In this document: positions 40,092 to 44,509 of the stretch, piece after piece
Layout of the letters: the number at the start of each line of letters is the position of its first letter
How positions within the stretch are numbered: position 1 is the stretch's first letter
Assembly: GCA_905234075.1 (NCBI GenBank)
Contig: CAJOGI010000002.1
Coordinates: 143,035-207,034, forward strand
Origin: an uncultured Synergistales bacterium
GTDB taxonomy: Bacteria > Synergistota > Synergistia > Synergistales > Aminobacteriaceae
Direction: 5' to 3'
Length of the DNA stretch: 64,000 bases
Notes under the pieces: generated by a model
Databases searched by the model: none
What the model saw: the letters and a program-made list of their open reading frames with translations, nothing else
Told to the model about the DNA's origin: nothing
Program-made: the position numbers and the translations under genes

Positions 40092-41258
40092 ATGAAAAGC
40101 ATGAAAAAAATTTTTTTAAGTTTTATTTTTCTTGGACTGCTCTGCGGAGTTTCTTCTGCCGACGTTGTGTATACTGCTACGACAGGAGCCAACGCGGGCA
40201 TCGGCTTAATAAAATTTTCGAGCTCGTTGGATGTTACAACAAGCGGACTTCAATACAGCCAAGCGGCGGCAGGTTCGATCGTTGCGCCTTACTGGGAAAA
40301 TAACACTTCAAACGGCAATGGAAATTCAAAATTAATTTTAGTTACGCCCGTCGAGAGTACAGACACGACGATTTCAGGTGATCAGGCTTATATATTCAGC
40401 CCGTCAAATCTCAACACGCCGGAAAATTCCGCGCCGATAATTTTAACGGGGACTTACGGAGTCCCGATTATATCCGGGACAAATCCGGGAGCTTATTTGT
40501 ATTTAGCGTCTAACTCTGCTATACGCGAATACGCAACGGCAAATTTTACGCTCAGAAACATTTACACGGCCACAAGCTCGGACAGTCTCCCTAATCCTGA
40601 AGTAAAAGGGCTTATGGTAGACAGCCGCATTCATGTCCTAATCCAAAGGCCGACAGGCTCCGGCGATGTCATCATGCATTTTGACGGACAGCTTAAAGCC
40701 TCAGGGTCAACGGCAACGAACACGACAACGGGATCGCAGGCAATGTGCTCTATAAGTTCAGGAACGGCCGTTGCGCATAACAAAGGCGTTCAAATTCTTT
40801 CGGGTTCGACTTCAAGCGATGCCGTAACAACTTCGGACCCCGTCATAGCGATATGCCGCGATACCGGCAGCGGCTTTTATTATGTCGAAAAAGGAAGCAG
40901 TAATTTTTCGCTCAAGCATTACAAAGATAAAGACAACACCACGACAATTTTCAGCGATGTCTCTGTTGATACGAATAGAGTCCAGCTTATGCAGGCCGAT
41001 AATAATCTTTTGGCTGTGGTAATCGCCGGCTCAATAAGATTTTATAACATGGCCAATAATGATGCGCACGTTAAGACTTTTTCTTCAAGCAATCTAGGCG
41101 GTTCTGCTGTCAGCATAGCGGCGGCAACAACAAGCGGCAGTAACGGAAGCTCCGGCGGGAGCGGATGTCAGGTAGGAGTTCGGAGGGAGGACTTAGGAGG
41201 TTTAATGCTCTTGGCTCTGGCCTTGTTTACGTTGATAAAGAAGGCGCAAAAGGCATGA
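40092..41258 (+). CDS. Secreted protein with Synergist-CTERM type sorting signal
   Basis: The protein (388 aa) has a signal peptide (KKIFLSFIFLGLLCGVSSA), a Ser/Thr/Asn-rich beta domain that may form repeats like a beta-propeller (LILVTPVESTDT, IIAGSIRFYNMA), a Gly/Ser linker and a C-terminal segment with a single Cys, a hydrophobic stretch and a basic end (SGCQ...LMLLALALFTLIKKAQKA). This layout fits the Synergist-CTERM tail known from Synergistetes. Eleven residues in the tail (QVGVRREDLGG) are encoded by a heptad array. The stop overlaps the next start as ATGA. Confidence 0.78.
   Translation: MKSMKKIFLSFIFLGLLCGVSSADVVYTATTGANAGIGLIKFSSSLDVTTSGLQYSQAAAGSIVAPYWENNTSNGNGNSKLILVTPVESTDTTISGDQAYIFSPSNLNTPENSAPIILTGTYGVPIISGTNPGAYLYLASNSAIREYATANFTLRNIYTATSSDSLPNPEVKGLMVDSRIHVLIQRPTGSGDVIMHFDGQLKASGSTATNTTTGSQAMCSISSGTAVAHNKGVQILSGSTSSDAVTTSDPVIAICRDTGSGFYYVEKGSSNFSLKHYKDKDNTTTIFSDVSVDTNRVQLMQADNNLLAVVIAGSIRFYNMANNDAHVKTFSSSNLGGSAVSIAAATTSGSNGSSGGSGCQVGVRREDLGGLMLLALALFTLIKKAQKA
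41168..41202. repeat. Heptad array inside the CTERM coding region
   Basis: CAGGTAGGAG, TTCGGAG, GGAGGAC, TTAGGAG, G. In the reading frame all units avoid stops; TTC replaces TTA at one unit. Confidence 0.65.
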
Positions 41259-41863
41259 ATAAAATCATAACGATTGGACGCGAATTTGGTTCGGGCGGCC
41301 GTGAGTTCGGAAGAAAACTCGCGGAACTTTTGGGCCTGCCGTATTATGACCGCGAAATAATTTCAGAAATTGCTAAGAGAACTTCTCTATCTGAAAAATA
41401 TATTCAGAACATCGCCGAGCATAAGCCCGTCATTCCTTTTCCTATACACACAGGGCGTACGTTTTGGGCGGTCGTTCCCGATTACGGTCAGTCAGTCCAG
41501 TCGGAACAGCATAACATAATCCGCGAGGCTGCCTCAAAATCCGATTGCGTCATCGTAGGGCGCGGAGCCGATTATATTTTGCGCGAGTTAAATCCGTTCA
41601 GAATTTTTGTTTATTCGAGCATTGAAAGCAAAATGAAACGCTGCCGCGAAAATCAGAGTAACGACTATGAACAGGGCAGTGGCGCGATGACTGATAAAGA
41701 ACTTGCAAGAAAAATCGAGCAGATTAATAAATCACGCGCTGATTATTACGAATTTTATACAGGCCAGAAATGGGGAGACAAAACTAATTACGACTTGTGC
41801 ATAAATACAAGTTTCATTGAACCGGAAAAAATTGCGGAAGCTGTGAAATTTTTAATAATTTAA
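41255..41863 (+). CDS. Cytidylate kinase-like protein
   Basis: A 202-aa P-loop kinase of the AAA_33/cytidylate-kinase-like group. The N-terminus ITIGREFGSGGREFGRKLAELLGLPYYDREII is the signature of the family; it differs from the true Cmk loop. DCVIVGRGADYIL and an arginine-rich lid follow. The substrate is unknown. I start at ATG 41255, overlapping the previous stop by 4 nt; the upstream extension is the end of the previous gene in another frame. Confidence 0.82.
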   Translation: MNKIITIGREFGSGGREFGRKLAELLGLPYYDREIISEIAKRTSLSEKYIQNIAEHKPVIPFPIHTGRTFWAVVPDYGQSVQSEQHNIIREAASKSDCVIVGRGADYILRELNPFRIFVYSSIESKMKRCRENQSNDYEQGSGAMTDKELARKIEQINKSRADYYEFYTGQKWGDKTNYDLCINTSFIEPEKIAEAVKFLII

Positions 41864-41927: not shown

Positions 41928-43193
41928 ATGCGCAATTATCTTGACGTTCTCGCAAAAATCGAAGAGACAAGAGCAAAAGCATGGCTAGTCGGCGACACTG
42001 TCCGTATGCTTCAAATGGGAGTGCAGCCGAAAGTTATTACGCTAGCGATTGATTCTGATGATATGTACAGCGTAGCTCTTGCACTAGGAACCGGCTCCGT
42101 AGATGCCAGAGGACCTTACCCTGCACTGCGTGGCGAAATTCTCGGCGTTAATTTCAGAGCCTTCGGACTGAGAGGCGCGACCATTGAGGACGATTTAGCC
42201 TGCCGCGATGTAAGCATTGAGGCCATTGCTATTAGATCTGACGGCGGAATAGTTGACCCGTTCGGCGGACGCTTCGACATTCGCAACAAAGTTATAAGGC
42301 TCACGGGCGACAACGTAGATTTAATCAGAGAGGACCCGTTAAGAATTTTAAGAATGCTGCGTTTCTCAGCTGAACTTGAGATGAACATCTTCTGGAAAAC
42401 TGAAAGCGATGTCAGGGCATTTCTTGAGAGTCACGCCGACAGAATGAGCGAAATTCCGCAGGAACGCTGGGGACGTGAAATTATGAAAGGTCTTGTCCGC
42501 CGTCCGTGCAGATTTATCAGAATGTGCGACAATTTCCATTTAATTCCGTTCTTTTTGAAAGAGCTTGAAGATTTAAAGCGCGAGAAAAATTTATACGAAC
42601 ACGTGCTGAACGTTCTTGACATAATCGAAAAAGAACTCGACACAAATAAAATCATGCAGAGCGAGGCTTTTGTTCTTGCAGGACTGTTTAACAACATCGG
42701 AACGAAAACTTTAGACGGCCATGACAGAACGAAATACACCGACAGGATCGTTAATGAGTATCTCACGCGCTGGAATATTCCTTCAGAGACGATTGAGGAA
42801 GTTCTGGCAATCCTGAATAATTACAGAAATTTCTATGTGCCTACCAGCGAAACAAAATTCTGCCGCGATGTTCTTGAGTACACTGAAGAAGCCGTGCTCG
42901 TCGCATTAGAGTTTGCAAAGTGCGTGGCCGAAGCGCAGGGTAAACTTGAAGAATACGGCGACGTTCTCGAAAATAACACTTGGAACTTGAAACAAGTTCT
43001 GCGAAGATTTACGAGCGTCAGACTTCAGACCGAAGGCGCACCGCGTTACATGACGGGCCGCGAAGTTATGAGCCTGTTGAACATGAAGCCGGGCAAACGT
43101 GTCGGCGAACTTCTCGAAGGTCTCGACATGGCAGTAGGAACAGGTAAAGTAAGCAGCCGAACAGGTGCTATAAAGTGGCTGAAAGCACAGTAG
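41928..43193 (+). CDS. CCA-adding enzyme/poly(A) polymerase homologue, probably inactive
   Basis: The protein (421 aa) has the overall plan of a class II tRNA nucleotidyltransferase with HD domain. The downstream family motifs are clear: CRDVSIEAIAI, DPFGGRFDIRNKVIR and EDPLRILRMLRFSAEL. The catalytic start is changed: GGAVRD is replaced by GDTVRM (about 22-27) and the DxD metal site by VITLA, so the two carboxylates are missing. The HD domain is also altered (AGLFNNIGTK instead of LLHDIGK). It may bind RNA or regulate rather than add nucleotides. GGAGATG precedes the ATG. It overlaps mnmE by 19 nt. Confidence 0.8.
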   Translation: MRNYLDVLAKIEETRAKAWLVGDTVRMLQMGVQPKVITLAIDSDDMYSVALALGTGSVDARGPYPALRGEILGVNFRAFGLRGATIEDDLACRDVSIEAIAIRSDGGIVDPFGGRFDIRNKVIRLTGDNVDLIREDPLRILRMLRFSAELEMNIFWKTESDVRAFLESHADRMSEIPQERWGREIMKGLVRRPCRFIRMCDNFHLIPFFLKELEDLKREKNLYEHVLNVLDIIEKELDTNKIMQSEAFVLAGLFNNIGTKTLDGHDRTKYTDRIVNEYLTRWNIPSETIEEVLAILNNYRNFYVPTSETKFCRDVLEYTEEAVLVALEFAKCVAEAQGKLEEYGDVLENNTWNLKQVLRRFTSVRLQTEGAPRYMTGREVMSLLNMKPGKRVGELLEGLDMAVGTGKVSSRTGAIKWLKAQ

Positions 43194-44509
43194 CGGCAAT
43201 TTCAACGGCGTTGGGCGAAGGAGGCATCGCCATAATAAGAGTCTCCGGATCCCGCGCCGTTCAAATCTCCACAAAAATTCTCACGCGGAAAAATTTTGAA
43301 ATTCCCGGAAAATTATATTTAACGAGCTTAATTGACGGGAACAAAAATATTTTAGATAGAGTCCTCGCAGTTTATTTCAAAGCTCCTCACAGCTACACCG
43401 GCGAAGATATTTTAGAAATTCATACGCACGGAGGAATTTTTATAGCGCGTCTGTGCCTTGAACTTTTATTAAAGAGCGGAGCAGTTTTAGCCCAGCCAGG
43501 CGAATTTACCCGAAGAGCTTTTATAAACGGAAGAATAGATTTATCACAGGCCGAAGGGGTTTTAGGGATTATCAAGGCTCAAAGCGTTGAAGCCCTCAAA
43601 GCTTCAGCACGGACTCTGAACGGCGGACTTTCAAAAATAATTCAGGACGTTCACGAAAAAATATTAAACATTCAGGCTAATATCGAAATTAATTTAGATT
43701 TCCCGGAGGGCGAAATTTTTGACGGAAATTTTGATTTAAGCCGCGAAATTTTTTGCGTGATTGAAGAACTTGAAAAACTTTTGTCGCGCTGCGAGGCCGG
43801 AATGATTTTTAATAACGGCGTTAAAATCACAATCGCAGGCCGTCCCAACGTCGGGAAATCTTCACTGCTCAATGCAATTTTAGAAAAAGACCGCGCAATC
43901 GTTACGGAAATTCCCGGAACTACACGCGATATAATCAGCGAGACAGTATTAATTAATTCTCTGCCGGTGATTTTGTCCGACACGGCAGGAATCAGAGAGA
44001 CTGAAAATATTATCGAGGCTGAAGGCGTTAAACTTGCAATGAAGGCCGCGAATGAAGGCGACTTGTGCCTGTTCGTCATTGACGGCTCAAAAAAAATAAC
44101 GGACGAAGAAATTAATTTTATAAATTCTCTTGACGACAAAGCAATAATCGTGATTAATAAATCTGATTTAGAGCAGGCTGCAAATTTTGAAACGGCTCTA
44201 ACAAAAATTCATGTCTCTGCAAAAAATAAAATAGGTCTAGAAGAATTAAAGCAGGCGATTTATGACAAAGCAATCAAAACTCCTGCGGCGGGCGGAGAAT
44301 TAAACGCTTCAGCGGCACAGCTTCAGGATATACGCGAAAGTTTGAACGCAATGCGCGAGGCTCACGGGCTTGCGGAAAAAAATTTTGAGCCCGACATCAT
44401 AGCCGGCCTTCTGAATGACGCGAGAATAAAATTAATGCACGTGCTTGGAATTGAGATCGGCGATGAACTTTTAGATTACATGTTCAATAGATTTTGTGTA
44501 GGCAAGTGA
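43175..44509 (+). CDS. mnmE: tRNA modification GTPase MnmE
   Basis: With MnmG it places the carboxymethylaminomethyl group on wobble uridine 34 of some tRNAs. The protein (444 aa) has the N-terminal TALGEGGIAIIRVSG, the G domain with GRPNVGKSSL, TTRDI, DTAG and NKSD, and the C-terminal FCVGK whose Cys is typical (usually FCIGK). The start is GTG, within the previous gene. mnmG is not in this window. Dispersed element copy 3 follows 9 nt after the stop. Confidence 0.96.
   Translation: MAESTVAAISTALGEGGIAIIRVSGSRAVQISTKILTRKNFEIPGKLYLTSLIDGNKNILDRVLAVYFKAPHSYTGEDILEIHTHGGIFIARLCLELLLKSGAVLAQPGEFTRRAFINGRIDLSQAEGVLGIIKAQSVEALKASARTLNGGLSKIIQDVHEKILNIQANIEINLDFPEGEIFDGNFDLSREIFCVIEELEKLLSRCEAGMIFNNGVKITIAGRPNVGKSSLLNAILEKDRAIVTEIPGTTRDIISETVLINSLPVILSDTAGIRETENIIEAEGVKLAMKAANEGDLCLFVIDGSKKITDEEINFINSLDDKAIIVINKSDLEQAANFETALTKIHVSAKNKIGLEELKQAIYDKAIKTPAAGGELNASAAQLQDIRESLNAMREAHGLAEKNFEPDIIAGLLNDARIKLMHVLGIEIGDELLDYMFNRFCVGK

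Follow-up and report, generated by a model that had tools for sequence, protein, structure and literature searches.

Textbooks describe the addition of CCA as universal; at this locus, a lineage of gut and mouth bacteria has kept an enzyme of this kind without its metal site, tied to a gene for wobble modification. The window analysed here, a stretch of 64,000 nucleotides from an uncultured Synergistales bacterium, contains an open reading frame which starts with ATG at exactly the coordinates first given for it and encodes a product of 421 residues; the start of the following mnmE gene is a GTG at 43175, 19 nucleotides inside this frame. The features considered below are:

41928..43193, + strand: gene of the putative pseudo tRNA nucleotidyltransferase, 421 residues (open reading frame, homology, predicted fold)
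41991..42008, + strand: GDTVRM in place of GGxVRD, residues 22-27 (alignment)
42033..42041, + strand: V-I-T in place of the DxD metal site, residues 36-38 (alignment)
42156..42158, + strand: Arg in the column of the third catalytic carboxylate, residue 77 (alignment, not structure)
42201..42224, + strand: CRDVSIEA, corresponding to motif B with Asn changed to Glu98, residues 92-99 (alignment)
42333..42344, + strand: DPLR, with the base-templating Asp and Arg of EDxxR retained, residues 136-139 (alignment)
42462..42479, + strand: ERWGRE, invariant neck motif, residues 179-184 (orthologue alignment)
42690..42695, + strand: NN at the HD column, residues 255-256, unconserved in the clade (alignment)
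43035..43145, + strand: tail motif conserved at the C-terminus, residues 370-406, with a homologous tail in the solved class II enzyme 3wfo (profile alignment)
43175..43193, + strand: 19-nucleotide overlap between the end of the pseudo-nucleotidyltransferase gene and the start of mnmE (open reading frame coordinates)
43175..44509, + strand: mnmE, conserved partner gene (TIGR00450, 338.9 bits, cut-off 252.6)

Further upstream (41165-41863) lies a cytidylate-kinase-like gene (TIGR02173, below cut-off), the listed start of which falls inside the preceding gene, with the internal MNKIITIG being its likely start. It adjoins in most congeners and was not found at the loci of other genera.

In a single-sequence search, the middle part of the window protein is similar to CCA-adding enzymes and to bacterial poly(A) polymerases. 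The Pfam PolyA_pol match covers profile positions 85-126 only, owing to the changes in the signature-bearing first half of the head; with a profile of the orthologues, the match to the same enzymes begins at residue 1. Sequence homology and the head-neck-body-tail fold thus place the protein by descent in the class II tRNA nucleotidyltransferase superfamily. According to the available text of PMC3925840, the metal in solved class II enzymes is held by three carboxylates (the DxD pair and a third one), which CC-adding enzymes likewise retain; the incoming base is paired by EDxxR through its Asp and Arg (available text of PMC3925840 and PMC7014341). The alignment, from which we assigned the catalytic residues, indicates that all three metal carboxylates are missing in the window protein (V36 and T38 at DxD, R77 at the third position) along with the GG motif (G22-D23), and that the motif-B Asn is replaced by E98; the base-templating D136 and R139 are present and invariant among the orthologues. 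The original prediction had described the changes of GGAVRD to GDTVRM and of DxD to VITLA, both of which we find (residues 22-27 and 36-40), and had included neither R77 nor E98.

All 47 other nucleotidyltransferases of the order in this alignment have an intact GG and DxD, and all 47 have the motif-B Asn; the third carboxylate is present in 44/47, its column being possibly misaligned for the insert-bearing type represented by L053-L055. The Asp of VRD is found in 42 of the 47, and M27 alone therefore means little. It had also been proposed that two active sites were selectively lost, the second being the HD site, changed to NN. Residues 255-256 do read NN, and loss of the nucleotidyltransferase site stands; HD, however, is absent at the aligned columns in 22/47 nucleotidyltransferases with intact GG and DxD, and residues 255/256 vary freely within the genus of the window, so that we reject the HD change as evidence for a selective inactivation. 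An error in sequencing or assembly is likewise rejected, since 35/35 orthologues from the same genus share GD, T38 and R77. The best match to the CCA nucleotidyltransferase equivalogs of NCBIfam (NF009814) reaches 90.2 bits at a cut-off of 290, and the intact enzymes L046, L049, L044 and L055 similarly score below the cut-offs of these equivalogs; for the A-adding enzymes of NF041569, which are about 880 residues long with extra N-terminal domains, the 421-residue protein scores 29.6 bits versus a cut-off of 1440. Being a class II tRNA nucleotidyltransferase by descent which fails the catalytic definition, it is, judged from its sequence, best called a new pseudoenzyme variant.

Among 81 genomes, 59 full-length copies and two fragments (G022 and G086) were found in 12/20 genera of a single Synergistales family. 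An order-wide search of 180 genomes (E up to 1e-50) yielded matches in 60, all within the same 12 genera; G083, from the genus of the window, gave no match in this search, and the short fragment of G086 falls under the E limit of 1e-50. Named records with orthologues comprise rumen, other gut and uncultured Synergistaceae entries as well as Fretibacterium fastidiosum, whose complete genome (NC_021038.1) encodes one; going by their isolate codes, we would guess that several of the uncultured Synergistaceae records are termite-derived.

For motif scoring, 53 of the 59 full-length members were used, with G080, G081, G082, G084, G085 and G024 left out, the last one being omitted from the alignment owing to an in-frame stop and having the same motifs when read separately; the two fragments were not used, and a second partial copy in G018 was counted only for adjacency to mnmE. 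Both Asp residues of DxD are lost in 50 of the 53, one is lost in L133, and both are kept in L126 and L132. The column of the third carboxylate holds Glu or Asp in 12 sequences, Arg in 37, Lys in three and Ser in one, and the second Gly of GG is Asp in 50, Asn in two and Gly in one. The loss is hence common to the orthologues, as the original prediction had suggested to check. Within the genus of the window, D23, T38, R77 and E98 are invariant in 35/35 aligned orthologues, although an unusual invariance of the replaced active-site positions is not significant against the background (4/6 invariant, hypergeometric 0.065). An Arg or Lys at position 77 accompanies E98 in 39/39 sequences carrying E98, which belong to lineages g22, g25 and the genus of the window (g1).

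In a tree of 50 rows, picked such that near-copies were thinned and long branches dropped, the clade is monophyletic (100/100) and sister to the intact paralogues L136-L144 (99/99) with the active-site columns excluded, and a quick first tree of 67 rows agrees. Since the support of 100/100 persists without these columns, we reject a convergent grouping of degenerate sites. The intact paralogues, which are full length like the window protein, differ from the clade in that GG-VRD, DxD, the third carboxylate, the motif-B Asn and HD are present in 9/9 and in that they do not adjoin mnmE; such sister copies occur in eight clade-bearing genomes (G090, G091, G093, G094, G096, G098, G099 and G100), which probably stem from termite guts. 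L132, in which DxD is still present, is the first branch inside the clade. Because this early branch keeps DxD and later lineages carry R/K77 together with E98, we read the sequences as pointing to a duplication followed by stepwise loss of the carboxylates.

Three members of the clade deserve separate description. In L126 (G095), both DxD and the third carboxylate are present, with GD instead of GG; no intact paralogue was detected alongside it in this 98% complete genome, and its sequence suggests that it may still be active. L037 (G024) contains one in-frame TAG, but otherwise the protein and its linkage to mnmE appear intact; the stop is either an error or an early decay, and loss of the gene may be tolerated in G024. 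L039 (G018) is a second, partial gene copy beside a second mnmE stretch of the same assembly and may reflect a strain mixture, contamination of G018 being 5%.

Of 14 tested pairs of genes, 10 with dS below 1 exhibit dN/dS values of 0.06-0.16 (Nei-Gojobori), and the closest pair gives 0.12 for mnmE. Within the genus of the window 29% of the positions are invariant overall; with domain limits set by hand, the fraction amounts to 39% for the head, 44% for the neck, 40% for the tail and 10% for the body. An RNA-binding role thus appears plausible from the sequences, given that neck and tail are as conserved as the head. The AlphaFold2 model computed from 40 natural sequences (pLDDT 91.8, pTM 0.84) has as its best match in the PDB the CCA-adding enzyme of B. 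stearothermophilus (1miv; Z 27.2, 4.8 Å, 372 residues), and the remaining top hits, which likewise extend over the full length, are CCA-adding enzymes and their class II relatives. A predicted fold that is kept, the clade-wide conservation of a protein with all catalytic carboxylates lost, purifying selection and a known intact paralogue agree with the pseudoenzyme originally proposed, and nucleotide transfer has very probably been lost in the genus of the window.

The tight joining to mnmE turned out to be stronger than first claimed: in 55/55 loci (54 genomes, 12 genera), mnmE is the very next gene and has the same orientation, its predicted start lying inside the pseudo-nucleotidyltransferase gene in 46 of them and no more than 74 nucleotides after it in the rest. 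For other nucleotidyltransferases, mnmE was found in none of 50 loci (flanks of roughly 0.6-1.5 kb). Comparison of 16 clade loci revealed that upstream flanking frames are common to 4/120 pairs and downstream ones to 0/120, about 1 kb or less being seen downstream and the upstream stretches being short in two loci. In 14 genomes devoid of the clade, the gene before mnmE is aminotransferase-like (13 genomes) or encodes an M17 peptidase (one genome), these families having been checked with Pfam in 3/14. Since all 55 loci are linked, the flanks are shuffled and the genomes devoid of the clade differ, the pair appears to have formed with the clade and to have been kept since. Genetic linkage across lineages is therefore in place for a partner of MnmE, although neighbouring genes demonstrate coupling and do not demonstrate that the products form a complex.

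The host genome (1.84 Mb, with an estimated completeness of 100%) does not contain a second, intact cca gene, for which the original prediction had suggested looking. Its only other PF01743 gene, on contig C4, encodes an 881-residue A-adding-type enzyme which matches NF041569 over the full length (544.9 bits, below the cut-off of 1440) and retains GGTVRD, DID and EDPSR, and no class I-type domain (PF09249) was found. Another nucleotidyltransferase gene, the absence of which would have spoken against the pseudoenzyme, is thus present, and no CC-adding enzyme was found. This lack is tolerable because all 43 host tRNA genes found with the Rfam model encode CCA, so that CC addition is unneeded for synthesis of the 3' end and needed only for repair. 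Counts of the CCA pattern (48 in the host versus 3 in a reversed control) show a clear excess also in most other genomes of 61, which, these being fragmented assemblies, is no proof; the gene-by-gene check covers the host genome. MnmG is present in the host.

Based on this evidence, we favour, at a probability of roughly 55%, a tRNA-binding pseudo-nucleotidyltransferase which is made together with MnmE and acts with it. According to this reading, a CC/CCA-adding-type enzyme was duplicated in the ancestor of part of one Synergistales family, one duplicate came to sit directly before mnmE, and nucleotide transfer was then lost stepwise, GG changing to GD and DxD disappearing first, followed by replacement of the third carboxylate by a basic residue and of the motif-B Asn by Glu, while neck, tail and the Asp/Arg pocket that templates the base would have been retained along with the complete fold. 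Such a protein would most likely still use its neck, body and tail to grip the acceptor and the elbow of the tRNA, the 3' end of which would lie in a pocket devoid of metal, and would serve as a chemistry-free tRNA adaptor or gate for the translationally coupled MnmE, which modifies the wobble U34. Considering its predicted fold and the conservation of neck and tail, the protein probably still binds tRNA; the linkage suggests, somewhat less firmly, an action together with MnmE. A more specific role, namely that of a non-catalytic reader of the tRNA 3' end through which U34 modification senses mature CCA, or which holds the tRNA for MnmE-MnmG, is a tentative proposal.

The main rival is a role as non-catalytic partner of the 881-residue A-adding-type enzyme, in which the protein would hold tRNA ends during repair and leave the chemistry to that enzyme. 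The two proteins are the sole products of PF01743 genes in the host, and 18/43 genomes of the genus appear to carry just this pair, as read from per-genome counts and frame lengths; however, the genomes in which the clade originated and DxD was lost still have an intact paralogue, and the gene of the clade is coupled to mnmE and not to the A-adding gene, which makes this role unlikely. New chemistry or the sensing of a ligand in the rebuilt pocket (D23, T38, R77, E98, D136, R139), e.g., of a nucleotide signal for MnmE, would accord with the invariance of the base-templating residues and with the pairing of R/K77 with E98 in every sequence having E98. Yet it matches no known chemistry, and the co-occurrence may be a single event on the tree and not repeated evolution; we thus regard this reading as quite improbable.

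The idea that the protein still adds CC by means of an unconventional metal site draws on searches with PF01743 and PF09249, in which no other CC- or CCA-adding gene was found in the host, but the carboxylates holding Mg in the solved class II enzymes, as given in the available text of PMC3925840, are all replaced, one of them by Arg, and the activity is unneeded for synthesis with CCA encoded in the tRNA genes; it seems most improbable. Very unlikely, too, is a relic retained only since its translation feeds mnmE: the overlap with the mnmE start in most genomes and the single genome with an in-frame stop are as expected for a relic, but purifying selection, a confidently folded model and residues of head, neck and tail that are invariant over 12 genera are not, and translational coupling alone would not require the latter.

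Comparison with known systems then delineates the preferred pseudo-nucleotidyltransferase. The class II CCA-adding enzymes from B. stearothermophilus (1miv) and of the psychrophilic type (6ibp/6q52) exhibit the same whole-length fold (Z 25-27) and share with the window protein the motif B frame, the Asp and Arg of EDxxR, the neck and the tail; unlike in these enzymes, GG, DxD and the third carboxylate are replaced, and identity is about 20%. The tail motif also aligns with 3wfo-3wfs (‘tRNA processing enzyme’; i-E 4.4e-6, fold Z 24-26). The latter entries presumably represent the CC-adding enzyme described in PMC3925840. A literature search of incomplete coverage returned no paper, by title or abstract, on a dead tRNA nucleotidyltransferase clade, and none on a tRNA nucleotidyltransferase clade linked to mnmE. 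Catalytically dead paralogues of tRNA enzymes of the HisZ type likewise reuse a fold without its chemistry, but have a different fold and role and provide an analogy only.

The intermediates of metal-site loss are still visible in living genera, and genes of the clade annotated as CCA-adding enzyme may not encode one. If tRNA is bound, the protein would constitute a clean example of an enzyme that has become an adaptor, and would point to a directly testable link between maturity of the 3' end and wobble modification.

Finally, the A-adding-type genes of related genomes exhibit variations of their own. Some congeners have one more intact nucleotidyltransferase gene (L040, L041, L042, L044 and L045) within a few kb of the A-adding-type gene, with a patchy distribution in the genus, as if gained and lost. 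Contigs C22 and C25 of G029 each carry a 999-residue frame in which the PolyA_pol head is matched twice, at a spacing of about 1.2 kb; this looks like a duplication, within one protein, of the catalytic domain found in the A-adding-type enzyme. In G073 (C1:2553806-2554183) the corresponding frame comprises 610 residues versus about 880 in relatives, reflecting a truncation or a frameshift.
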